Source of the DNA: an uncultured Paracoccaceae bacterium
Lineage (GTDB): Bacteria > Pseudomonadota > Alphaproteobacteria > Rhodobacterales > Rhodobacteraceae
NCBI GenBank assembly: GCA_937863185.1
Contig: CALMEG010000122.1
Location: forward strand, 1-34,030
DNA: 34,030 nt
Reading direction: 5' to 3'
This document shows, piece by piece, positions 11,966 to 29,470 of this stretch (position 1 is its first letter; each line of letters starts with the position of its first letter). The position numbers were made by a program, and so were the translations under genes. The notes below the pieces were generated by a model. The model had not been told where the DNA came from. It did no database searches and saw nothing but the letters and a program-made list of their open reading frames with translations.

Positions 11966-12616
11966 TCACAGGCCCAGAAGTCCGGGCACCGCGCGCATCG
12001 AGGCGAAAAGCTCGGCCCCTTCGGCGGCAAGTCGGGGATGGGCGCCCTGCGGGGCATAGCCCAGGCAGCGCATCCTCGCCGCGCGCGCGGCCCGCGCGCC
12101 GGTGGAGCTGTCTTCGATCACCACGCAATGCGCCGGATCGGCACCAAGCGCGTGCGCGGCATAGAGGTAAAGGCCGGGATCGGGCTTTGGACAGCGAAGC
12201 TCCTGCCCCGAGAAAAGCCGCCCCCTCAGCCGGGCCAGGAGGCCGGGATGCTGGCCAAGCGTGGCCTGCATCTTGGCCTGGCGCCCGTTCGAGCCGACGG
12301 CATAGCCGATCCCCGCCGCATCCAGCGCATCCAGCAATTCGGGAATGCCGTCGATCAGCGGCGCATTGCCCGCAAGGCGGGCATAAAGCCGAGTGTAATA
12401 GGTCTCGACCCAATCTTCGGGCAGGCTTGCACCCATGCCGCGGGCGGTCTGCGCGACGCCCTCGATCGTGCCGCCGATGAACAGGGCCTCCATCTCGTGC
12501 GGATCAAGCGGCAGGCCATGCGCGGCAAGCTCTTCGCCCAGAAGGGCGAAGGTTGCGGGCTCGCTGTCGACCAGAACCCCGTCGCAATCGAACAGAACAG
12601 CGGCGGGCCGGTTCAT
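11966..12616 (-). CDS. HAD-superfamily phosphatase/phosphomutase (beta-phosphoglucomutase-like)
   Basis: Soluble hydrolase of 216 residues with all four HAD motifs: FDCDGVLVDSEP at the N-terminus (nucleophile and acid/base Asp), VGSNGR (motif II Ser), CPKPDPGLY (motif III Lys) and VVIEDSSTGARAA (motif IV Glu-Asp). A helical cap follows motif I, as in the phosphoglucomutase/phosphatase subclass. Its ATG overlaps the rsmD stop in an ATGA, making it the last gene of a three-gene operon (flavoprotein reductase, rsmD, this gene). It converges with the hydratase-like gene 12 bp away. The natural substrate is probably a small sugar phosphate, and nothing in the context narrows it further. Confidence 0.88.
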   Translation of the reverse strand: MNRPAAVLFDCDGVLVDSEPATFALLGEELAAHGLPLDPHEMEALFIGGTIEGVAQTARGMGASLPEDWVETYYTRLYARLAGNAPLIDGIPELLDALDAAGIGYAVGSNGRQAKMQATLGQHPGLLARLRGRLFSGQELRCPKPDPGLYLYAAHALGADPAHCVVIEDSSTGARAARAARMRCLGYAPQGAHPRLAAEGAELFASMRAVPGLLGL

Positions 12617-13176
12617 TGCGGCATCCTGAGCAGGGTCACGACCGTGTCGCCATATCTGCGCTGGTCGATCTGTTGCAGCGGTTCGGGCGGCGCGGGGGGG
12701 GCGCTTTCCTCCCATACCACGGTCGCGCCGGGCGCGATCCACCCCCCTTCGAGGCATGAGGCAAGCGCGGCCTCGCCCAGGGCCTTGCCATAGGGCGGGT
12801 CAAGGAAGATCAGCCCGTAGCCGGGGCCGCGATTGGGCCCCATCCGCGTGGCATCGCGGCGCCAGACATCGCTGACCCCCATGGCGCGCATCTTCTCGAT
12901 GTTCTGGCGCAAAAGCGCGCGCGCCGCCGCGCCGTCATCGACAAAGGCCACCCGTGCCGCGCCGCGCGACAGGGCCTCAAGGCCAAGCGCGCCGGTTCCG
13001 GCGAACAGGTCCAGCACGCGCGCGCCGGGCACCGGATTGCCATGCGTGCCGTTGATCAGAAGGTTGAAGATGGATTCGCGCACGCGGTCGGTGGTGGGGC
13101 GCAGATGGGCGGCGGCATCGCCCTCGCCCAGCTCGGCCAGTTTCAGGCCGCGCCGCTCGCCTCCGATGATCCTCAT
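12613..13176 (-). CDS. rsmD: 16S rRNA (guanine(966)-N(2))-methyltransferase RsmD
   Basis: A 187-residue SAM-dependent methyltransferase that modifies G966 (E. coli numbering) of 16S rRNA during small-subunit assembly. MRIIGGERRGLKL is the characteristic opening, and LRPTTDRVRESIFNLL is the conserved RsmD segment. VLDLFAGTGALGLEALSRGA is the SAM-binding loop (motif I), and LIFLDPPYG is the catalytic motif IV (DPPY). Both ends overlap neighbours through ATGA junctions, with the reductase gene upstream and the HAD hydrolase downstream, so translation of the three is probably coupled. Confidence 0.95.
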   Translation of the reverse strand: MRIIGGERRGLKLAELGEGDAAAHLRPTTDRVRESIFNLLINGTHGNPVPGARVLDLFAGTGALGLEALSRGAARVAFVDDGAAARALLRQNIEKMRAMGVSDVWRRDATRMGPNRGPGYGLIFLDPPYGKALGEAALASCLEGGWIAPGATVVWEESAPPAPPEPLQQIDQRRYGDTVVTLLRMPQ

Positions 13177-14375
13177 TTCAACAGGGCCTTCAGGTCGCTT
13201 TGCGGATCGCCGATCACCTCGGGCGCGGGCGATTTTCCGGCCTCGATCAGGCGCTTGCCGATCATGTAGGCGCGCGCGTCGTTCAGCGCATCCACCGCGA
13301 TCAGCCTCTCGTCGCGGTAATACCAGAAGGACAGCCCGTCGCCCTGCCGGGTGATGACGCGGGAATAGCCGCTGTTCAGCCCCGCGATCTGCAACTTGGT
13401 ATCGAACTGGTCCGACCAGAACCACGGCCGGGGGTGATAGTCCTGCCCCGCGCCCAGCATGTTGGCCGCGACCAGCTCGGCCATGTCGATGGCGTTGCCC
13501 ACGCTTTCCAGCCGGATGCGCCCCTCGGGGCCGGGGAAAGAGGCGCAATCCCCCGCCGCCCAGATCGCCGGGTCAGAGCTTTGCCCCATGGCGTTCACCG
13601 CGATCCCGTTGTCGATGGCAAGGCCCGCGGCCTCGGCAAGCGCGGTGGCCGGGGCGATGCCGATCCCGACGATCACCACATCGGCCGGAACATGGCGGCC
13701 ATCGGCCAGGTCGGCGCCGGTGACATGGGTGGTTCCGGTCAGCCGCGCAAGCCCCGTGCCTTCAAGGATCGTCACGCCGTGGCCCTCATGCAGGGCGCGG
13801 ATCGCGTCGGCCGTCCCGGCGCAGGCCACGCGGCCAAGGATGCGCGGCGCGGCCTCGATCAGCGTGACCGACAGCCCCAGCTTGCGCGCGACGGCCGCCG
13901 CCTCAAGCCCGATATAGCCGCCGCCCACCACGACAAGGCGCGCGCCCGGAACCAGCGCGGGGGCCATCGCATCCACATCGGCAAGGGTGCGCACCACATG
14001 CACGCCGGGCAGCGCGCCGCCGATCGCTTCGGGCAGGCGGCGCGGTGTGGCACCGGTGGTCAGGGCAAGCTGCGCATATTCCACGCTCTCGCCCGAGGCG
14101 AGCCTGACCCGCCTTGTCGCCCGGTCGATTTCGGTCACCCTCGTGCCGGTGCGCAGTTCGATCCCCTGGGCGGCCCAGAAGTCGTCGGCGCGCAGCGTAA
14201 GGCGCTCCAGCGGCATTTCGCCCAGAAGATAGGCCTTGGACAGCGGCGGGCGCTGATGGGGGGGCCCCGGCTCTTCGCCCACGATCGTCGGCTTCCCCGC
14301 AGATCCAAGCCCGCGCAGCTTGGCGGCCATGGATGCCGCCGCCTGGCCGCCGCCGATGATGACAATCCCGCTCAT
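13173..14375 (-). CDS. FAD/NAD(P)-dependent ferredoxin reductase-type oxidoreductase (rhodocoxin/putidaredoxin reductase-like)
   Basis: A 400-residue flavoprotein that transfers electrons from NAD(P)H to a small iron-sulfur protein. GIVIIGGGQAAASMAAKLR is the FAD-binding G-x-G-x-x-A loop, and PPHQRPPLSKAYL the typical redox-loop region. LVVVGGGYIGLEAAAVARKLG is the NAD-binding loop, and IWAAGDCASFP the second FAD contact. The C-terminal domain (FWSDQFDTKLQIAGL) is the one that follows in putidaredoxin/rhodocoxin reductases. ATG 14375 follows AGAGGGA on the minus strand. It heads the operon with rsmD and the HAD gene and is divergent from the peroxiredoxin gene by 80 bp. No ferredoxin or P450 gene is near, so its electron acceptor is unknown. 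Confidence 0.9.
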   Translation of the reverse strand: MSGIVIIGGGQAAASMAAKLRGLGSAGKPTIVGEEPGPPHQRPPLSKAYLLGEMPLERLTLRADDFWAAQGIELRTGTRVTEIDRATRRVRLASGESVEYAQLALTTGATPRRLPEAIGGALPGVHVVRTLADVDAMAPALVPGARLVVVGGGYIGLEAAAVARKLGLSVTLIEAAPRILGRVACAGTADAIRALHEGHGVTILEGTGLARLTGTTHVTGADLADGRHVPADVVIVGIGIAPATALAEAAGLAIDNGIAVNAMGQSSDPAIWAAGDCASFPGPEGRIRLESVGNAIDMAELVAANMLGAGQDYHPRPWFWSDQFDTKLQIAGLNSGYSRVITRQGDGLSFWYYRDERLIAVDALNDARAYMIGKRLIEAGKSPAPEVIGDPQSDLKALLK

Positions 14376-14455
14376 ATGCCGCTTCCCTCTGGTCGTTTCC
14401 GTGCCGAACCCTATATCCTGCCCGCATCGAAGCGCAACGCGACAGGGAGACTGCG

Positions 14456-14944
14456 ATGACGATTTCAACTGGGGCCAGGTTGCCCGAAGCGACACTTTTG
14501 ACCATGGGCGGGAACGGGCCGGAATCCGTTGCCCTTTCGTCCCGGCTTGATGGCCGCAAGGTGGTGATCTTCGGCCTGCCCGGCGCCTATACCGGCACAT
14601 GTTCCACCGCGCATGTGCCCAGCTTCATGCGCACCCGTGCGCAATTTGCCGAAAAAGGTGTGGATGAGGTGATCTGCGTCTCCGTCAACGACCCCTTCGT
14701 GATGAAGGCCTGGGGCGAGGCGACCGGCGCGACCGCAGCGGGCATCACCATGCTGGGCGATGCCGGTGGCGATTTCACCAAGGCGATCGGCATGGATTTC
14801 ACCGCCCCTGCCGTGGGGCTTTTTGACCGCTCGGCGCGCTATGCGATGCTGGTCGAGGATGGCGTGGTGAAGGTTCTGCACCGCGAAGAATCCCCCGGCG
14901 TCTGCGAGGTCTCGGGCGGAGAGGCGCTTCTGGCCGCGATCTAG
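14456..14944 (+). CDS. Prx5-type peroxiredoxin
   Basis: Thiol peroxidase of 162 residues that reduces hydrogen peroxide and organic hydroperoxides, probably using glutathione/glutaredoxin or thioredoxin. The active-site motif PGAYTGTCSTAHVPSF holds the peroxidatic Cys49; the family norm is PGAFTGTCS. VICVSVNDPFVMKAWG and FTKAIGMDF are further Prx5 landmarks. A second Cys near residue 152 (PGVCEVSGGEALL) could be a resolving cysteine, as in atypical two-Cys members. The start has ACAGGGAG upstream. It is divergent from a flavoprotein reductase and ends 1 bp before the end of a converging glutathione S-transferase gene, a grouping that suggests oxidative-stress defence. Confidence 0.93.
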   Translation: MTISTGARLPEATLLTMGGNGPESVALSSRLDGRKVVIFGLPGAYTGTCSTAHVPSFMRTRAQFAEKGVDEVICVSVNDPFVMKAWGEATGATAAGITMLGDAGGDFTKAIGMDFTAPAVGLFDRSARYAMLVEDGVVKVLHREESPGVCEVSGGEALLAAI

Positions 14945-14945
14945 C

Positions 14946-15527
14946 TCAGCCGATGGCGCGCCCGAAGGCCGGGCGCGCCGCAAGCCTGTCGCGGTAAGCC
15001 TCGAAGGCGGGGCGCGTCGGCAAGGAGCCGAATTGCAGGCCCCAGGGGATATGTGAACCGACATAGACATCGGCCGCGGTGAACCGACCGCCCGCGATGA
15101 AATCATCCCGGCCCAGCTTTTGTTCCAGCGCGCCGATCACGCTATCGAAATCGCCGTAGCCGACCATCTGGCGCCGCTCCGGCGGGGGTTCAATTCCAAG
15201 AGCGCGCGCGGTGACGGCGGCTTCGATGGGGCCGGCGGCGAAGAACATCCAGCGGGAATATTCGGCCCGCTCGTGGGGGCGGGGGGCAAGGCCGGCCTCG
15301 GGAAAACGCTCTGCCAGCCAGGCGCAGATCGCGGCGACCTCGGTCACCACGGTGTCGCCCTCGGTCAGGACGGGCACCTTGCCCATGGGGTTGAGCGCAA
15401 GGAAATCGGGTGTGCGCATCGGTGCGCCGTAATCCAGCTCGATCATCTCGCATTCAGCCCCGGTCTCCTCGACCATCCATTGTGCGATCCGCCCGCGCGA
15501 GCGCTGGTTGGTATAAAGCGTCAGCAT
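14946..15527 (-). CDS. Glutathione S-transferase
   Basis: Cytosolic protein of 193 residues. Residues 1-75 form the thioredoxin-like domain: MLTLYTNQRSRGRIAQWMVEE starts the fold with the Asn/Arg-Ser region near the catalytic position. NPMGKVPVLTEGD has the cis-Pro that binds the glutathione backbone, and VVTEVAAICAWLAERFP holds the Glu that contacts the gamma-glutamyl group. The C-terminal helical domain includes GGRFTAADVYVG, the conserved GST N-capping box. The start at 15527 follows AAGGGAAAACACG. It converges with the peroxiredoxin gene. Its last codons form a perfect 10-bp GC stem that may stop transcription from both sides. The specific substrate is unknown. Confidence 0.92.
   Translation of the reverse strand: MLTLYTNQRSRGRIAQWMVEETGAECEMIELDYGAPMRTPDFLALNPMGKVPVLTEGDTVVTEVAAICAWLAERFPEAGLAPRPHERAEYSRWMFFAAGPIEAAVTARALGIEPPPERRQMVGYGDFDSVIGALEQKLGRDDFIAGGRFTAADVYVGSHIPWGLQFGSLPTRPAFEAYRDRLAARPAFGRAIG
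14955..14979. terminator. GC-rich hairpin at the prx/gst convergence
   Basis: Perfect 10-bp arms GGCGCGCCCG (14955-14964) and CGGGCGCGCC (14970-14979) enclose a 5-nt loop. The hairpin is encoded within the last codons of the GST gene, 11 bp past the end of the peroxiredoxin gene. It is exceptionally stable and readable from both directions but lacks a T-run. Confidence 0.5.
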
Positions 15528-15561
15528 CGTGTTTTCCCTTTCGGCAAGGCAGGCATGGCGA

Positions 15562-15921
15562 TCAGCGCGCGTGCAGTTTGCACAGGCATTCGACGGGTTC
15601 GGAATGATCCTTCTGCACCGTCGCCGCGCCAGCCAGCTTGTCGATGGCGCGGGCAAGTTCGATGTCCTGCATGCTCAGCCCGTCGCAGTGATGGGTGGTC
15701 AGGGTGATGTCGACGACATTGTAGACATTGCTCCATTCCGGGTGATGGCCCATCTTTTCGGCTACCAGAGCGATGCGGGACATGAAGCCCCAAGCCTCGG
15801 AAAAACTGCGGAACTTCAGGATCTTGCGGATACCGTCGCGGTCGGGCACGCCGCCCCATCCGGTTTCGCCAAGGGCGGGCAGAAGGCTTTGTCTTTCGTT
15901 TTCGTCGAGGCGGCCGGTCAT
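15562..15921 (-). CDS. phhB: Pterin-4a-carbinolamine dehydratase
   Basis: Small cytosolic enzyme of 119 residues that dehydrates 4a-hydroxytetrahydropterin, normally recycling the cofactor of aromatic amino acid hydroxylases. The signature is complete: [42 protein letters not shown], with His59-His60-Pro61-Glu62-Trp63 and His77 as the expected active-site residues. ATG 15921 follows GGAGGG by 5 nt and gives the usual N-terminus, and the in-frame start at 15954 adds an unlikely extension. The last 20 residues, ending ECLCKLHAR, exceed the common length. No phenylalanine hydroxylase is nearby, so the role may be in other pterin metabolism. It lies downstream of fliP in the same direction but is unlikely to be functionally linked to it. 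Confidence 0.92.
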
Positions 15922-19261: not shown

Positions 19262-19276
19262 TTAACAATCGGTTAG
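19262..19276. promoter_or_regulatory. CtrA-type binding site in the fliF/fliL divergent region
   Basis: TTAA-N7-TTAG differs from the CtrA consensus TTAA-N7-TTAA by one base. It lies 12 bp before a TATAGA hexamer, where a CtrA box would overlap the -35 region of the fliL promoter. The location between two flagellar operons supports it. Confidence 0.6.
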
Positions 19277-19321: not shown

Positions 19322-19804
19322 ATGGACGACACACAGGAAAGCAGCCCGGAGGTTGCTGAAAAGAAATCGAAAATTCCGCTTCTGATCGGATTCGTGCTGA
19401 TGCTTGCCTGCGGGGCGGGTGGCTATCTGGCGGTCATGGCCGGAGTGATTCCCGGCCTGTCCGGCGGCACCTCGCACGAGGTTCACGACACATCCGACAC
19501 GCTGCCCGACATCGCCTTTGTCGCACTTGATCCGCTGATCGTGTCGCTGCCCGGTGCGGTTCAGCGCCACCTGCGTTTTTCCGCGCAGCTCGAGGTTGCC
19601 TCGGCCCATGCCAAGGAGGTCGAGCTGCTTCGCCCGCGGGTGATGGATGTGCTGAACGGTTATCTTCGCGCGGTCGATATCGCCGAGCTGGAAGAGCCGA
19701 CGGCGCTGTTCCGGCTGCGGGCCCAGATGTTGCGCCGCGTGCAGATGGTCACCGGCGAGGGCCGCGTGCGCGACCTGCTGGTGATCGAGTTTGTCCTGAA
19801 CTGA
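19322..19804 (+). CDS. fliL: FliL-family flagellar basal-body protein, copy 1
   Basis: Single-pass inner-membrane protein of 160 residues that sits near the stators and MS ring and supports torque generation. It has a charged N-terminus (residues 1-17), a membrane helix (about 18-40, IPLLIGFVLMLACGAGGYLAV), a linker, then the periplasmic FliL domain. That domain runs from FVALDPLIVSLPGAVQRHLRFSAQLEVA, through an Asp/Arg-rich helix region, to VRDLLVIEFVLN at the C-terminus. ATG 19322 fits a transcription start near 19300; an in-frame GTG at 19280 would lie upstream of the candidate -10. It heads the rightward operon with motE and motA. A second, diverged FliL is encoded at 28980-29462. Confidence 0.9.
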   Translation: MDDTQESSPEVAEKKSKIPLLIGFVLMLACGAGGYLAVMAGVIPGLSGGTSHEVHDTSDTLPDIAFVALDPLIVSLPGAVQRHLRFSAQLEVASAHAKEVELLRPRVMDVLNGYLRAVDIAELEEPTALFRLRAQMLRRVQMVTGEGRVRDLLVIEFVLN

Positions 19805-19814
19805 AGAGGAAGCC

Positions 19815-20174
19815 ATGGAGTTCATCGCAGATATCCTGCTTGCCGCCGGTGCGCTGGGTGCGGCCGCCTATTGCCTTGTGCTGGCGCGGCGCCTGCGTCA
19901 GTTCAATCAGCTTGAAAACGGCATGGGCGGTGCGATCGCCGTGCTGTCGGCGCAGGTCGACGACATGACCAAGGCCCTTCAGCAAGCCCAGGCGACGGCT
20001 GCGTCCTCGGCGCGCCAGCTCGATGCGCTGACCGCGCGTGCCGAAAGCGGGGCGCAGAAGCTCGAACTTTTGCTGGCATCGCTGCATGATCTGCCGCCGG
20101 GCGATGCCGAGGGCCGCCGCCCGCGGGTTCTGCGCCGGCGTGCAAGGTCTGACATGGCGGAGTATGCGGAATGA
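19815..20174 (+). CDS. Small membrane-anchored coiled-coil protein of the flagellar cluster (possibly DUF6468)
   Basis: A 119-residue protein of unknown function. One N-terminal membrane helix (about 4-24, IADILLAAGALGAAAYCLVLA) is followed by Arg-rich residues and a coiled-coil region (about 40-95) rich in Ala, Gln and Leu with few breaks. The C-terminal 25 residues are basic (RRPRVLRRRARS). The Shine-Dalgarno is GAGGAAG. It sits 10 bp after fliL and overlaps motE by an ATGA, an arrangement I associate with alphaproteobacterial flagellar clusters where a DUF6468-type protein is found. That family name is from memory and not confirmed. A role in stator or FliL placement is plausible but unproven. 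Confidence 0.75.
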   Translation: MEFIADILLAAGALGAAAYCLVLARRLRQFNQLENGMGGAIAVLSAQVDDMTKALQQAQATAASSARQLDALTARAESGAQKLELLLASLHDLPPGDAEGRRPRVLRRRARSDMAEYAE

Positions 20175-20767
20175 CCCGGCGGCACGGACCCAAAAAGGCG
20201 GCGGCAGGGCATCGGCGCCGGGCGGGGCGGGGCGCGCTTCTGATTCTGGCGACGCTGCTTGGCGTGTCGGGGTTCCTGCGGCTGGTCGAGGCGACGGGCG
20301 GCGCATTCGCGCTTGCCTCGGACGCGACAGTGCCCGCAGGCGCGGTCGAGCCGACCGCACCCGATGCGATTGCGCTTCTGGAAGCCGTGAAGGAGCGCGA
20401 ACGCAAGGTGTCCGAGCGTGAAGCGCGGCTGGACGCGCGGATCGAGGCGTTGAAAAGCACCGAGGAACGCGTGGAGAAGCAGCTTGCCGCGCTGAGCGCC
20501 GCCGAAGAGGACCTTGCGCGCACCGTGGCGATCGCGGATGGCGCGGCCGAGCAGGACGTGGCCCGGCTTGTCGCCTTTTACGAGGCGATGAAGCCGAAGG
20601 ATGCGGCCCGGCTGTTCAATGAAATGGCGCCGGAATTCGCGGTCGGGTTCCTGGCGCGCATGCGGCCCGATGCGGCGGCCGCGGTCCTTGCCGGGCTTGA
20701 TCCCAAGGCGGCCTATTCCATCAGCGTGCTGATGGCGGGACGAAATGCCAATGCACCAAGGCAGTAA
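20171..20767 (+). CDS. motE: MotE-like protein with an MgtE-N-type C-terminal domain
   Basis: A 198-residue protein. A basic N-terminus and one membrane helix (about 21-38, GALLILATLLGVSGFLRLV) are followed by a periplasmic linker, a strongly charged coiled coil (about 70-118, VKERERKVSEREARLDARIEAL and onward), and a helical domain (about 125-190) with VARLVAFYEAMKPKDAARLFNEMAPEFAVGFLARMRPDAAAAVLAGL. That last part is the repeat pattern of the MgtE N-terminal/MotE domain. In Sinorhizobium meliloti, MotE is a chaperone that stabilises the periplasmic motility protein MotC. Here the gene precedes motA, and motA is followed by a large secreted protein that could be the client. It overlaps the preceding gene by ATGA. 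Confidence 0.8.
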   Translation: MTRRHGPKKAAAGHRRRAGRGALLILATLLGVSGFLRLVEATGGAFALASDATVPAGAVEPTAPDAIALLEAVKERERKVSEREARLDARIEALKSTEERVEKQLAALSAAEEDLARTVAIADGAAEQDVARLVAFYEAMKPKDAARLFNEMAPEFAVGFLARMRPDAAAAVLAGLDPKAAYSISVLMAGRNANAPRQ

Positions 20768-20821
20768 CCTTTTCCGACGCCCCCTGGTGGAGGGCAGGCC
20801 AGCAGACCGGAGGCAATCCAC

Positions 20822-21691
20822 ATGATCGGTATCGTCGGTATCGTCGTCATCTTCGTGATGGTTTTCGGCGGCTACATCGCTGCCGGTGGAAAAATGGGGA
20901 TCATCCTCAAGTCGCTTCCCTTCGAGATGATCATGATCTGCGGCGCGGCGGCGGGATCGTTCCTGCTGTCCAACGACATGGCCTCGGTCAAGCACACGAT
21001 GCGGGATGTGGGCAAGGTGTTCAAGGGACCGAAGTGGAAGCCCGCGGATTACCGTGACCTGCTGTGCCTTCTGTTCGAGCTTATCCGGCTGGCCCGGCAG
21101 AACCCCGTGGCGATCGAGGAGCATATCGAGGCGCCGGGCGACTCGTCGATCTTCGGCCGTTATCCCAGGATCGCCGCGGATCACGAGGCGGTCGACATGA
21201 TCTGTGACACGATGCGCTCTGCCTCCATGAATTACGACGATCCCCACCAGGTCGAGGAGGTTCTCGAGAAGCAGCTCGAGGCGCAGTATCACCATGCGCT
21301 GCATTCCAGCCATGCGATGCAATCCGTTGCGGATGCGATGCTCGCGCTTGGCATCGTTGCCGCGGTCCTTGGGGTGATCAAGACCATGGGCTCCATCGAC
21401 CAGCCGCCCGAGATCCTTGGAAAGATGATCGGCGGCGCGCTGGTGGGCACCTTCCTGGGGGTGTTCCTGGCCTATGGCTTCATCGCGCCTTTCGCGGCGC
21501 GCATGAAAACGGTGATCGATGAGGACAGCCATTTCTACAAGCTGATCCGCGAGGTTCTGGTGGCCAACCTTTACCAGCACGCAACCAATATCTGCATCGA
21601 GGTGGGGCGCCAGAACACCCCGCATCACAACAGGCCCAGCTTCGTCGATCTGGAAGAGGCGCTGAAACTGCTCAAGGCCGAAGCCGCATGA
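20822..21691 (+). CDS. motA: Flagellar motor stator protein MotA
   Basis: Proton-channel stator subunit of 289 residues with four membrane helices. MIGIVGIVVIFVMVFGGYIAAGGKMGIIL and FEMIMICGAAAGSFLLSND are helices 1-2. The large cytoplasmic loop has the charged residues that work on FliG (YRDLLCLLFELIRLARQNPVAIEEHIE, equivalent to the Arg90/Glu98 region of E. coli MotA). ALGIVAAVLGVIKTMGSIDQPPEILGKMIGGALVGTFLGVFLAYGFIAPFA includes both functionally important prolines. The Shine-Dalgarno is CGGAGG. Its obligate partner MotB is not encoded in this window. The stop overlaps the next gene by ATGA. Confidence 0.95.
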   Translation: MIGIVGIVVIFVMVFGGYIAAGGKMGIILKSLPFEMIMICGAAAGSFLLSNDMASVKHTMRDVGKVFKGPKWKPADYRDLLCLLFELIRLARQNPVAIEEHIEAPGDSSIFGRYPRIAADHEAVDMICDTMRSASMNYDDPHQVEEVLEKQLEAQYHHALHSSHAMQSVADAMLALGIVAAVLGVIKTMGSIDQPPEILGKMIGGALVGTFLGVFLAYGFIAPFAARMKTVIDEDSHFYKLIREVLVANLYQHATNICIEVGRQNTPHHNRPSFVDLEEALKLLKAEAA

Positions 21692-23832
21692 TCCGCCTGC
21701 TGGTTGCCCTTTTCCTTCTTGCCGCGCCGGTTTCGGCCGAAACCGTCCGTGTCCGCTCGGGCGAGCATGAAACATTCTCGCGGCTGGTCTTCGATCTGCC
21801 GAACGGCACGGAGTGGAGCATCGAAACCGCCGCAGACAGCCTCCGCCTGACAGTGGGTGACCCGAGCCTGCGGTTCGATTCCGGCAGCGTGTTCGACCTG
21901 ATCCCGAGAACCCGCATTCGGGCGATACGGCAGGACGGCGCGGGCGGCGATATCGTCATTTCACTGGCGGGCGATGTGCATGCAAAAAGCTTCGCAACCG
22001 AAAGTGGTTCGGTCGTGATCGACGTGATTTCCGGCGCCTTGCCAGCGAAGGCCGATGCGCGGGGGGATGGGCCTGCGGTCCTGCCGCCCGTCTTTCCCGC
22101 CACGCCGACGGCCGTGTCGGACCTGCAGGCGCATTTGCCCGTATACTGGAAGCGCCGGCTGGAGGCGCCCGACCCGGCGCATCCCGCACCGGCAAAGCCC
22201 CGGCCCTTGCCCGCATCCTCCCGTCTGGCCGATGTCCAGCAGGCCGAGCAGGAGTTGCTGCACCAGATCAGCCGGGCGGCCGCGCAGGGCCTTATCCGTC
22301 TCGATACACGGCAGATCGGGCTGCCACCCGGCCCGGAGGCGCCGGCCCGGCAGGATGGTGCCCCGCCCGCGCCGGATGCGGCGTCGGATCATCTCGCCAT
22401 TCAGTCGCGCACGGTGATCGATCGTGACAACGCGGTGGCGGGCGCGGCCCCCGAACTTTCTGCCGATGGCGTGCGGTGCCATTCGGATGCGGAACTCGAC
22501 ATTGCCGGATGGCTGGGTGACGCGCCTGTTGCCGCGCAGATCGGTGCCGCCCGTTCGTCCCTGACGCAAGAGTTCGACCGCCCCGACGATGCCGCGGTTG
22601 CAGATCTGGCAAGGCTTTACATCGCCCTGGGCTTCGGGGCCGAGGCGCGGGCTCTTCTGACCTCCATGTCGGTCGATCCGGGGGCAGACAGGGTCTTGCC
22701 GGACCTGGCGGAGCTGGTGGAAGGCAGGCCGGTCGGGGCAGGGTCGCGCTTTCACTCCATGGCGGGATGCGACAGCGCGGCGGCGCTCTGGGCTGTGCTG
22801 GCGGCCAGGGAGGGTGCACTTTCGGCAGAGGGGATCAACCAACCCGCCGTGACCCGCGCTTTCTCGGCGCTGCCGCCGCATCTGCGGGCCTGGCTGGGGC
22901 CCGATCTGACCCGTCGCCTGATCGACGCGGGCGCCACCCGAAGCGCAGAGGATATCCGCGCGGCGATCGCGCGGTTGCCGGATACCGACCCCGCCTCGTT
23001 GCGCCTTGTGGAGGCGCAGATCGACCTTGCGCGGGATGACACGGGTCTCGCGGCACGGACCTTGCGCGAACTTTCGACAGGGGAAGGGGAAGAAACGCCG
23101 CAGGCGCTTCTTCTTTACGTTGCCGCACAGATCGACCGGGGCGAAAGGGTTGATCCCGAAGCGATCGAGACGCTGGATGCACTGGCCTTCGAACATGCCG
23201 CGACCCCGCTTGGTGCCCGGCTGCGCAAGGCCCATGTCCTGGCACTGGCGGGCGCCGAGCGGTTCGACGAGGCGTTCGAGGCCTTGTCCCGCTGGCCGCA
23301 GGGCCAGCATGAGGCGCTGCGGCTGGAAGCCCGTGAGGGGCTTTTCCAGAACCTTCTGGCACTTGCCGACACGGCCCGGTTCCTGCCCTGGGCTTTTGCG
23401 GAAACCGGCCAGCCGGGCCTGAGTGCCGCCACACGGCTTGCTCTGGCGGAACGTCTGGCGGATGAGGGATTCCCCGATGCCGCAAGGGCGCAGCTGGAGG
23501 GCGATCCGGGCCAGACAGAGGACGGGCGGTTGTTGCATGCGCGCATGGCGCTGAAGGATGGCAATGCGCCCGCGGCCATCGCCGATCTTGTCGGGCTTGA
23601 CAATGAGGCGGCGAATGCCCTGCGGGCCGCGGCCTTGCAGCGGATCACCGAGGATGCCCGGCCGCAGAAGCAAGATGATGGGGTTTTACCCGCCGCGCCG
23701 CCACCGGACAGGCCTGCCGCAGGGGGTGCGGACCTGGCCACGGCCCGAGACCTGCTTGAACGAAGCGCGGCCGAGCGCGAGGCCATGCAGGCGCTTTTGC
23801 AAGAAACCGCAGATCTTCGGGAATCACCTTAG
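21688..23832 (+). CDS. Large exported protein of unknown function, AMIN-like N-terminus and helical-repeat C-terminus, linked to motA
   Basis: I do not recognise a named family. The protein has 714 residues and a clear Sec signal (MIRLLVALFLLAAPVSA then ETVRV), so it should be periplasmic. Residues about 20-115 are beta-rich and resemble an AMIN domain: FSRLVFDLPNGTEWSI, SLRLTV, RTRIRAIRQD and SGSVVIDVISG follow the strand order of peptidoglycan- or envelope-targeting AMIN modules. A Pro/Ala-rich linker follows (about 120-260). From about 285 to 650 it is nearly all alpha-helical with Ala/Leu/Arg spacing like TPR or Sel1-type repeats (for example ALAGAERFDEAFEALSRWPQG). The C-terminal 60 residues are Pro-rich, then helical. 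Its ATG overlaps the motA stop. Position suggests a motor or wall-associated stator accessory, perhaps analogous to MotC. Confidence 0.85.
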   Translation: MIRLLVALFLLAAPVSAETVRVRSGEHETFSRLVFDLPNGTEWSIETAADSLRLTVGDPSLRFDSGSVFDLIPRTRIRAIRQDGAGGDIVISLAGDVHAKSFATESGSVVIDVISGALPAKADARGDGPAVLPPVFPATPTAVSDLQAHLPVYWKRRLEAPDPAHPAPAKPRPLPASSRLADVQQAEQELLHQISRAAAQGLIRLDTRQIGLPPGPEAPARQDGAPPAPDAASDHLAIQSRTVIDRDNAVAGAAPELSADGVRCHSDAELDIAGWLGDAPVAAQIGAARSSLTQEFDRPDDAAVADLARLYIALGFGAEARALLTSMSVDPGADRVLPDLAELVEGRPVGAGSRFHSMAGCDSAAALWAVLAAREGALSAEGINQPAVTRAFSALPPHLRAWLGPDLTRRLIDAGATRSAEDIRAAIARLPDTDPASLRLVEAQIDLARDDTGLAARTLRELSTGEGEETPQALLLYVAAQIDRGERVDPEAIETLDALAFEHAATPLGARLRKAHVLALAGAERFDEAFEALSRWPQGQHEALRLEAREGLFQNLLALADTARFLPWAFAETGQPGLSAATRLALAERLADEGFPDAARAQLEGDPGQTEDGRLLHARMALKDGNAPAAIADLVGLDNEAANALRAAALQRITEDARPQKQDDGVLPAAPPPDRPAAGGADLATARDLLERSAAEREAMQALLQETADLRESP

Positions 23833-23867: not shown

Positions 23868-23903
23868 GGGTCTGGCAAGAATTGCTGGAGGTGGGTGAAA
23901 CCC

Positions 23904-24668
23904 ATGAAACGCTTTCGTTGGGCCGTCATGCGGCATGTGCTCCTGATGGCCGTGGGGCTTTTTGCGGCCCGTGCCGAGGCCAGCCAGTCCGAGGCAGAGA
24001 TCTGCTCGCGCGTCGCGGCGACGGTCGCACAGCAGTCGGGCGTGCCGGTTTCGGTTCTCAGGGCGATCACGCTGACGGAAACTGGCCGCAAGCTTGGCGG
24101 CGCGTTTCAGCCCTGGCCCTGGACGGTGAACATGGAGGGCAAGGGCCACTGGTTCGACACGCAGGACCAGGCCCGCGCGTTCGTCTTCAAAGAGTTCAAG
24201 CGCGGCGCCCGAAGCTTCGATGTGGGCTGCTTCCAGATCAATTACAAATGGCATGGGGAGGCCTTCGCCTCGATCGACGAGATGTTCGATCCGCTGGCAA
24301 ATGCCCAATATGCGGCCAGGTTCCTCAGGGATCTGCACACCGAAACCGGATCCTGGAGCAAGGCGGCCGGCGCCTACCATTCGCGCACGCCGGAATTCGC
24401 CAACCGCTATGCCGCGCGTTTCGACCGCATTCGCGCCACGCTCGCCCCGGAGGAAGGTCCGGATGGCGGCGCGCCCTTGCCCGATCGGGAGATCCCCGAA
24501 ATCCCCGATATCGTCCTGGCCGCGAATGGCCCCGCACCGCAGGACAGGGCAGAGCGGGTGAACCGCTATCCCCTTCTGATCCGCAAGACGGCGGCGCCGG
24601 CCTCGCTTGGGGGGGCGCCGGGGGCAAGCCTCTTTGCCGCCGCGGTCGCAAGAATGGGGCAGGAATAG
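23904..24668 (+). CDS. Flagellar-cluster lytic transglycosylase (SltF-like)
   Basis: Exported peptidoglycan-cleaving enzyme of 254 residues that probably opens the cell wall for the growing rod. The signal peptide is about 1-27 (VLLMAVGLFAARAEA). The goose-lysozyme-like SLT domain has the catalytic Glu59 in ITLTETGRK, the G-x-x-Q-I-N motif at GCFQINYKW (Gln111) and the A-x-Y motif at AGAYHSRTPEFANRY (Tyr158). The remainder is a Pro/Glu-rich tail. ATG 23904 was chosen over GTG 23895, which is only 1 nt from the GGAGGTG ribosome site. In Rhodobacter sphaeroides an SLT-type enzyme, SltF, does this job because FlgJ lacks a muramidase domain. The position right before flhA supports the same role here. 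Confidence 0.9.
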   Translation: MKRFRWAVMRHVLLMAVGLFAARAEASQSEAEICSRVAATVAQQSGVPVSVLRAITLTETGRKLGGAFQPWPWTVNMEGKGHWFDTQDQARAFVFKEFKRGARSFDVGCFQINYKWHGEAFASIDEMFDPLANAQYAARFLRDLHTETGSWSKAAGAYHSRTPEFANRYAARFDRIRATLAPEEGPDGGAPLPDREIPEIPDIVLAANGPAPQDRAERVNRYPLLIRKTAAPASLGGAPGASLFAAAVARMGQE

Positions 24669-24671
24669 CCC

Positions 24672-26756
24672 GTGCGCATCACCATGCTGAAGATCTTCCA
24701 GCCCACTATCCTGCTGTCGCTTGCGCTTATGGCGGTGATCGTGATGATGATCCTGCCGGTGCCGGCATGGGTGCTGGACCTGGGGGTCGCACTGTCCTTC
24801 GGACTGGCGATCCTGATCTTCACCATCACGCTTTTCATCGAGCGGCCGCTGGATTTTTCGGCCTTTCCCACGGTGCTTCTGGCCTCGCTCATGCTGCGGC
24901 TGTCGCTGAACGTGTCCTCGACGAAACTGATCATCGGGCAGGGCCATACCGGAACCGGGGCCGCCGGCGGCGTGATCGAGGGGTTCGCCAATTTCATCAT
25001 GGGCGGCTCGGTCCTGATCGGGCTTGTGGTGTTCTGCGTCATCCTGATCGTGAATTTCATCGTCATCACGAAAGGCGCCGGCCGCATGGCCGAGGTCGGC
25101 GCGCGCTTCGCGCTGGATGCGATGCCGGGAAAGCAGCTGGCCATCGACAGCGACATGAATGCCGGCGCGATCGACCATGCCGAGGCCCGCGCGCGGCGCG
25201 AGAAGGAGCAGGCCGAGACGACCTTCTTCGGCTCGCTCGACGGGGCGTCGAAATTCGTCAAGGGCGACGCTGTCGCGGGGCTTCTGATCACCATGCTCAA
25301 TATCGTGATGGGGTTGATCATCGGCACGCTGGTGCATGGCATGCCGATGGACCGCGCGCTGGAAACCTATGCGATCCTGACGGTGGGCGACGGGCTGGTC
25401 AGTCAGATCCCGGCGGTGATCATCTCGATTGCCTCGGCGATCCTGCTGTCACGCGGGGGCGCGCAAGGCGCCGCGGATCTGGAGCTGTTCCGGCAGCTCG
25501 GGCGCTATCCCGCGGCCCTTGCCACCGTCGCGGTGCTGATGGCGCTTTTTGCGATCGTGCCCGGCTTGCCGTTCCTGCCGTTCATCGGCAGCGCCCTTGT
25601 GCTTGGGGGGATCGCTTTCGGCGGTTACCGGGCGGCCGGGAAACGGCGGCGGCGCGACGCGATGCGCCTGCCCCCCCCGTCCGAGCCTGCCCCGCGCAAG
25701 TCGTTGGGGGACATCCTCGATGTCGATGAGATCCATGTCGAATTCGCGCCCGACCTTGTTTCCATGGCGCTTGATCCCGCGACCGGCCTCGATGCGCGCA
25801 TTGCCAACATGCGCAATCATGTTGCGGCCGGTTACGGCGTGATCCTGCCCGAAATCCGCCTGACCGACGATCACACGCTTGGCCCCGGCTGGTATCGCAT
25901 CCGCATCCAGGGGGTCGAGCAGGCGAAGGACCGGCTGTTCCCGGATCATGTCCTTGCCCTCGTGTCCGATAATTCCGGCAGCGTGCCCGAAGGGCAGGAT
26001 GTCCGTGAGCCGGTCTACGGCGCCCCCGCGCGCTGGATCCTGTCCGACCGGCAGGAAGAGGCCGCGCTGTCGGGCTCGACCGTCGTCAGCCCGACAGAGG
26101 TTCTGGCGACCCACCTGCTTGAGGTGATCCGCAACAATTTCGCGCGGCTGATGACCTTGCGCGCGCTGCGCCGCCTTCTGGATGAGGCTGCAAACCTGTC
26201 GGATGCGGCGCGGGGCGAAAGCAACCGCCGCATCCTGGACGATCTTGTTCCCGACAAGGTCAGTCCGGATCTGCTTCTTGCGGTCTTGCGCCTGCTTCTT
26301 GAAGAGAGGGTGTCGATCCGCAACCTGCTGCTGATCGTCGAGGCGATCGCCGAGGCCCGGGGCATGCCCTCGCCCGAGGCGATCTGCGAACATGTCCGCC
26401 AGAGGCTGGGCTTTCAGCTTGTCGCGGATCTGCGCCGCGATGACGGCACCATCCCGCTGCTTCAGCTTGCGCCCGAATGGGAAGAGGCGTTCAGCACCTA
26501 TCAGATCGGCGGGGACCGCGGGCAGGGTGACATTGCCCTGCCGCCGGACAAGTTCAACCGGCTGGCGGGCAATGTCGCCGAGAAGGTTGCCTGCGCCGGG
26601 GAAGAGGGTGTCTTTCCCGCACTGGTGACCTCGACGTTCCGGCGCCGTTTCCTGCGCACCGTGCTGGCCGCGAAGGGCATAAGCGCCCCGGTTCTCAGCT
26701 TTGAGGAAATCGGGACCAACGCGCGCCCCGCCATGGTCGGCGTGGTTCCCGCATGA
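24672..26756 (+). CDS. flhA: Flagellar export gate protein FlhA
   Basis: Largest subunit of the type III export gate, 694 residues. The N-terminal part (about 1-310) contains eight membrane helices. The FHIPEP signature is present at about 133-165 (VITKGAGRMAEVGARFALDAMPGKQLAIDSDMNAG), followed by the charged FHIPEP loop and TYAILTVGDGLVSQIPAVIISIASAILLSR. The cytoplasmic domain (about 340-694) forms the nonameric docking ring for substrates and chaperones. The start is GTG 24672, 7 nt after AGGA and 3 bp after the transglycosylase stop; an in-frame ATG at 24684 has no ribosome site. The stop overlaps fliR (ATGA). Confidence 0.97.
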   Translation: MRITMLKIFQPTILLSLALMAVIVMMILPVPAWVLDLGVALSFGLAILIFTITLFIERPLDFSAFPTVLLASLMLRLSLNVSSTKLIIGQGHTGTGAAGGVIEGFANFIMGGSVLIGLVVFCVILIVNFIVITKGAGRMAEVGARFALDAMPGKQLAIDSDMNAGAIDHAEARARREKEQAETTFFGSLDGASKFVKGDAVAGLLITMLNIVMGLIIGTLVHGMPMDRALETYAILTVGDGLVSQIPAVIISIASAILLSRGGAQGAADLELFRQLGRYPAALATVAVLMALFAIVPGLPFLPFIGSALVLGGIAFGGYRAAGKRRRRDAMRLPPPSEPAPRKSLGDILDVDEIHVEFAPDLVSMALDPATGLDARIANMRNHVAAGYGVILPEIRLTDDHTLGPGWYRIRIQGVEQAKDRLFPDHVLALVSDNSGSVPEGQDVREPVYGAPARWILSDRQEEAALSGSTVVSPTEVLATHLLEVIRNNFARLMTLRALRRLLDEAANLSDAARGESNRRILDDLVPDKVSPDLLLAVLRLLLEERVSIRNLLLIVEAIAEARGMPSPEAICEHVRQRLGFQLVADLRRDDGTIPLLQLAPEWEEAFSTYQIGGDRGQGDIALPPDKFNRLAGNVAEKVACAGEEGVFPALVTSTFRRRFLRTVLAAKGISAPVLSFEEIGTNARPAMVGVVPA

Positions 26757-28979: not shown

Positions 28980-29462
28980 TCAGGGCGAATCCTGGCGGAC
29001 GATATCCGCGATCAGGATGTCGGACACCTCGGGCCCAAGCGCCTTGTGCGCGGATTCGAGCAAGGCCCGGCGGAGCGCTTCGAGGTTGCCCGATTGCGTG
29101 AAGGCCCCGCGGAACCCTCCGGCATTGGCGTGGTTGAAAAGGACGCTCAGGAAACCGTCGCGCAGTTTCGGCTCCATCTCGTAGACCCGCTCACGATTGC
29201 CCTGCGCAATCTCGAGGCTCAGCGACAGGATCACAAGCGCCGAGACCTGCCCATCCTCTATCGTCGGTATGACGAACTGATTGTTAAGCTTGACATATTC
29301 GCGCCCGGTATCGGATTCGGCATGGGAGGGCGCGGCATCGTGCGGTTCGGCCTCGGCCATCTCTGCCTCGGGCGGCGGCGGAGGTTCGGCAAAAAACTTG
29401 CCCGCTCCGACGCCGGCCAGCAGGCCGATCAATGCCATGACGATCGGAAGCAACTTACGCAT
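28980..29462 (-). CDS. FliL-family protein, copy 2
   Basis: A 160-residue single-pass membrane protein with a very short cytoplasmic N-terminus (MRKLL), a membrane helix (about 4-22), a Pro/Glu-rich linker (PPPPPEAEMAEAEP) and a C-terminal periplasmic domain. The FliL pattern is recognisable: YVKLNNQFVIPTIEDGQVSALVILSLSLEIAQG, then LRDGFLSVLFNHANAGGF, then LEALRRALLESAHKALGPEVSDILIADIVRQ. ATG 29462 with GAGGG 5 nt upstream was preferred to GTG 29468, which falls inside that ribosome site. It is last in the flgB-to-flgH unit. The topology matches copy 1 but the sequences differ greatly, so this is an old duplication or a separate subfamily. Confidence 0.85.
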   Translation of the reverse strand: MRKLLPIVMALIGLLAGVGAGKFFAEPPPPPEAEMAEAEPHDAAPSHAESDTGREYVKLNNQFVIPTIEDGQVSALVILSLSLEIAQGNRERVYEMEPKLRDGFLSVLFNHANAGGFRGAFTQSGNLEALRRALLESAHKALGPEVSDILIADIVRQDSP

Positions 29463-29470
29463 GGGCACCC

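Follow-up and report, generated by a model that had tools for sequence, protein, structure and literature searches.

The genes at positions 20171 to 23832 of the window, by which we mean the whole 34,030-nucleotide stretch analysed from an uncultured Paracoccaceae bacterium, raise the question of what a large secreted protein does directly behind a motE-like gene and motA, in a unit from which motB is missing. A sequence-only reading had proposed a MotE-linked stator accessory system in which the large protein, thought to have no characterised homologue, would be the client of MotE. Three open reading frames are indeed present on the plus strand, at 20171-20767, 20822-21691 and 21688-23832, and the stop codon of the second overlaps the ATG of the third by 4 nt (ATGA). 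The second encodes a protein of 289 aa whose assignment to MotA is certain from its sequence match (TIGR03818, E 4.9e-107, 357 bits, above the cut-off). The gene motB, which the sequence-only reading had missed in the unit, does not occur in the window. In the same genome a single MotB_plug match is located close to the end of a different contig (G000:C166), so that its frame is cut.

The unit lies in a flagellar cluster of Rhodobacteraceae type on one contig. The minus strand carries fliP, fliN and fliF, and the plus strand fliL, a pflI homologue, motE, motA, the gene of the 714-aa protein, sltF, flhA, fliR and flhB. In the 3′ part, flgH, flgA and flgG/flgF-type genes lie on the minus strand with a second FliL-domain gene that adjoins flgH (28980-29468, PF03748 E 4.7e-6). 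The first gene of the operon, fliL (19322-19804, plus strand, PF03748 E 1.8e-12), is likely to start at ATG 19322; the mechanical open reading frame begins at GTG 19280. Between the divergent fliF and fliL we read from the sequence a CtrA-type box, TTAACAATCGGTTAG (19262-19276, plus strand), with one mismatch to the consensus used, TTAA-N7-TTAA. A near-identical box precedes fliL in 75 of the 76 named relatives, and a CtrA site upstream of fliL2 has been reported in Cereibacter sphaeroides (PMC10954123). The pflI homologue (19815-20174, plus strand) was assigned by its position, by 64% identity to the open reading frame at the PflI position of locus L124 and by the published gene order (PMC10954123). 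Downstream of the unit, sltF, encoding a flagellar lytic transglycosylase (23895-24668, plus strand, PF01464 E 1.4e-6) and a frequent neighbour in relatives, is followed by flhA (24672-26756, plus strand, TIGR01398 above the cut-off). Upstream of fliP, non-flagellar genes (HAD hydrolase, reductase, GST-type) occupy 11966-15656, the place of the motB-flgEKLI operon in Phaeobacter inhibens; insertions at this place have been reported for D. shibae and C. sphaeroides.

The identity of the 714-aa protein was determined by comparison with L124. In this locus MotE has exactly 185 aa and MotK exactly 652 aa, and the MotK Cys at position 49 becomes position 20 once 29 residues are removed, matching the publication. 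From these lengths, the Cys position and the gene order we take L124 to be the C. sphaeroides locus, whose fla2 carries the same operon with motK as the last gene (PMC10954123). The 714-aa protein (21688-23832, plus strand) was 32% identical to L124 MotK over 594 residues (E 1e-59), and MotE of the window was 51% identical to its 185-aa counterpart over 185 residues (E 5e-48). On these sequence matches the 714-aa protein is the orthologue of C. sphaeroides MotK (RSWS8N_12065; PMC10954123), with the same operon position after motA. It is therefore not uncharacterised, contrary to the sequence-only reading: MotK was described in 2024 and, by gene order, as CP4 in 2025. The N-terminus, MIRLLVALFLLAAPVSAET, resembles a typical signal sequence by eye. 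Both proteins share an AMIN N-terminus, a Pro-rich linker and a TPR region, but window MotK is 62 residues longer. The aligned relatives have a segment, some tens of residues long, that is missing from window MotK close to where the solenoid ends on its C-terminal side (23658-23734). MotC of S. meliloti, which had been suggested for comparison, is likewise a TPR-rich partner of MotE and is periplasmic, as the window protein probably is; it was rejected because the window protein has an AMIN-type domain and MotC is reported to have none.

An AlphaFold model of MotK, built with 27 sequences, had a mean pLDDT of 82.6 and agreed with the architecture read earlier from the sequence. An AMIN-type beta-sandwich was predicted at about residues 18-122 (21739-22053, plus strand; pLDDT 88 when folded alone); in the full-length model the beta domain spans 18-115. 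It is followed by a Pro-rich, mostly disordered linker (22054-22500, plus strand) of low pLDDT except at about 179-199, where the linker contains one conserved helix with the motif LLxQLxRAAxQGL. Residues 272-657 (22501-23658, plus strand) form a TPR-type alpha solenoid in the model and in structure matches, and residues 683-711 (23734-23829, plus strand) a conserved C-terminal helix with the motif PLAxxRxLLxxS. AMIN-like and AMIN profiles matched the protein only below threshold, and TPR_19 matched 5 of the 27 family members in sequence. The N-terminal domain folded alone aligned with the AMIN domain of AmiC (Z 11.6, 104 residues, rmsd 4.0), with PilQ (Z 10-11) and with the N-terminal domain of PflA (9leq_A; Z 8.3, 91 residues, rmsd 2.9). 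Matches of this domain to small heat-shock proteins fell below AmiC and PilQ on realignment.

For the whole protein, the best Foldseek match in the PDB was 9hmf_K, from the periplasmic scaffold of Campylobacter jejuni (E 1.1e-6), with 775 alignment columns for a 773-residue chain, or about the whole length. We infer from its length and fold that chain K is PflA, a protein that helps to hold the stators and is described as a beta-sandwich joined by an unstructured linker to a TPR superhelix (PMC12222027, the paper for 9HMF). The TM-score was low (0.15), which we attribute to the alpha-carbon trace and to flexible domains. It is therefore the order of the folds, and not superposition, that supports the match to PflA. 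The predicted fold of MotK has this order in common with PflA and with CC_2058 of Caulobacter, and each of the three is a partner, or proposed partner, of a ring protein of MotE/FlgY type. A recent review already puts MotE forward as the E-ring protein and proposes a relationship between MotK, CC_2058 and PflA (PMC13023049), and a 2025 preprint likewise groups these three. MotK thus appears, by its predicted fold, to be built like the Campylobacter spoke.

The motE gene (20171-20767, plus strand) encodes 198 aa, predicted to be secreted, with an MgtE_N head (PF03448, E 4e-7). The match covers residues 121-181, behind a helical, charged stretch. The collar FlbB model also matched (E 3e-7), below that model's cut-off. 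FlgY and FlbB have been shown to form a ring round the MS-ring, and the same has been proposed for MotE (PMC13023049). Window MotE shares the predicted secretion and the MgtE_N head with its C. sphaeroides and S. meliloti counterparts but lacks their single Cys, and the disulphide it forms is required for MotE stability in both species. No cysteine is present in window MotE, and 45 of 112 relatives are also without the single Cys, so that the residue is not shared by the family as a whole.

Homologues of the 714-aa protein were found in 199 of 296 sampled Rhodobacteraceae genomes. FlhA was also present in 198 of these 199 genomes (Fisher p 2e-41) and MotE in 194. For the pattern scan of gene order the 27-row MotK alignment was too diverse, and a 10-row alignment gave 80 named loci. 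The order fliL-pflI-motE-motA-motK, on the same strand, was present in 76 of them and in part in the other 4; in 44 it continued in full with SltF and FlhA. The presence of homologues in so many genomes in a conserved gene order excludes chance, and the module is real and conserved. Two MotE-positive, MotK-negative genomes were checked individually. In G113 the contig ends just past motA. In G258 (L146), an apparently frameshifted motE adjoins fliL and pflI homologues, motA and motK were not found, and there was no FlhA match in the genome either; it is possible that this is a decaying cluster. Neither genome contradicts the pairing of MotE with MotK. A single-protein scan of the genome contigs gave no match, and a plasmid search gave one weak match.

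Function can be approached through the orthologue. In C. sphaeroides both MotK and MotE are required for the flagellum to rotate; they are periplasmic, are located at the flagellated pole and bind each other as well as MotB2 (PMC10954123). A MotE-linked stator accessory system, as first read from the window, is thus borne out, and it is one already described rather than new. The reported MotC degradation in S. meliloti cells lacking MotE, together with the adjacency and homology of MotE here, would fit MotE as a chaperone and the 714-aa protein as its unstable client. In C. sphaeroides, however, MotK was stable without MotE, whereas MotE was severely reduced without MotK. This weakens the chaperone-client view and turns the client role proposed for the large protein the other way round. 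MotE is also found at the flagellar structure when MotK, MotA2 or MotB2 is absent, which argues for a structural part, and we consider a chaperone role of this kind unlikely.

The unit probably represents the stator module that MotE, MotA and MotK form in the archetypal (fla1-type) flagellum of Rhodobacterales, with MotK as a periplasmic spoke. The orthology of MotK and MotE, the conserved operon, the predicted fold and the co-occurrence in our analysis support this, and the periplasmic location, the MotE-MotK-MotB2 binding and the paralysed mutants come from work by others on the relative C. sphaeroides. MotK would be exported to the periplasm and, by analogy with PflA, its TPR solenoid would form a spoke whose inner side points toward a ring of MotE dimers round the MS-ring. 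The linker and the AMIN beta-sandwich would reach outward to the peptidoglycan and to MotB on its periplasmic side, and MotE and MotK would jointly position, recruit or activate MotA/MotB units. Of the earlier suggestion that the large protein anchors or gates the stator at the wall, the link between stator and wall probably holds, and wall binding would fall to the AMIN domain. In the literature covered we found no demonstration of peptidoglycan binding by this domain for any MotK.

The same gene order, fliL, CP2, CP3, motA, CP4, sltF and flhA, was reported for P. inhibens, in which transposon mutants of CP2, CP3 and CP4 were immotile (PMC12363192). The names MotE and MotK do not appear in the text of that paper. 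The likeness is one of gene order, and by this order CP2 is PflI and the equivalent of the window's pflI homologue, CP3 is MotE and CP4 is MotK. Phaeobacter sp. B1627 (L088), used as a stand-in for P. inhibens, had the order fliL-pflI-motE-motA-motK-flhA. Two separate bodies of work are joined in this way, since the "enigmatic" CP2, CP3 and CP4 of Rhodobacterales receive names; the equation of MotK with CP4 is new.

The mutant phenotypes do not agree between the two species. The P. inhibens CP3 mutant had no flagella and only FlgH in its exoproteome (PMC12363192), whereas the C. sphaeroides motE mutant was flagellated and non-motile. This conflict counts against the stator-module explanation, and the equation of CP3 with MotE makes it testable. 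The P. inhibens CP4 mutant had fewer flagellar proteins in its exoproteome (PMC12363192), and sltF is the next gene in many relatives, as in the 44 loci with the full order. This could mean that MotK acts chiefly in wall remodelling or assembly, together with SltF, and that the rotation defects are secondary. No enzyme fold was found for MotK, however, 15 loci that extend from MotK as far as FlhA showed no SltF in between, and in C. sphaeroides MotK has been reported to be indispensable for rotation and to bind MotB2. A primary role in wall remodelling or assembly is therefore very unlikely in our judgement.

Genes related to motK also occur outside the family. The MotK profile matched in 114 of 385 sampled genomes of the class, 4 of these in the window's own family, mostly in the N-terminal part of long open reading frames, many of about 1000-1400 aa. 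The MotK-like proteins of other alphaproteobacterial families are larger. In 14 of the 15 loci examined in these families, no more than about 3 kb separated the MotK-like gene from motE. Such profile-level relatives near motE suggest that the claim of CP4 being restricted to Rhodobacterales is too narrow, and their occurrence close to motE throughout Alphaproteobacteria is a second new result. Just upstream of the MotK-like gene, the five loci scanned contained a MotB_plug open reading frame in L130, L131 and L140, CheZ in L133 and no match in L136, whereas in Rhodobacteraceae motA adjoins motK. In this small sample, a MotB_plug frame beside the MotK-like gene fits the reported contact of MotK with MotB2. 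In L131 (G461), the stretch from motE to the MotK-like gene contains two successive MotB_plug frames and a CheZ gene.

We tentatively propose, at somewhat less than even odds, that MotE and MotK may form a general alphaproteobacterial hub-and-spoke scaffold of FlgY-PflA type. Its AMIN-tipped spoke would carry the wall contact of the stator. It would be encoded near motE throughout the class, beside motA in Rhodobacteraceae or a motB-type gene in some other families, and the MotE disulphide would have been lost in some lineages including that of the window.

Window MotK also differs from C. sphaeroides-type MotK in its cysteines. A CxC pair in the AMIN domain, which the C. sphaeroides type has, was present in 86 of 122 MotK sequences and is missing in window MotK (residues 95-97, 21970-21978). 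The MotE Cys and this pair at first appeared to be inversely associated (Fisher p 1e-6), but the association was dropped after a tree check: the tree has only 7 changes for each trait, and none of it was seen among the few independent pairs. C264 and C361 of MotK were invariant in all 122 sequences.
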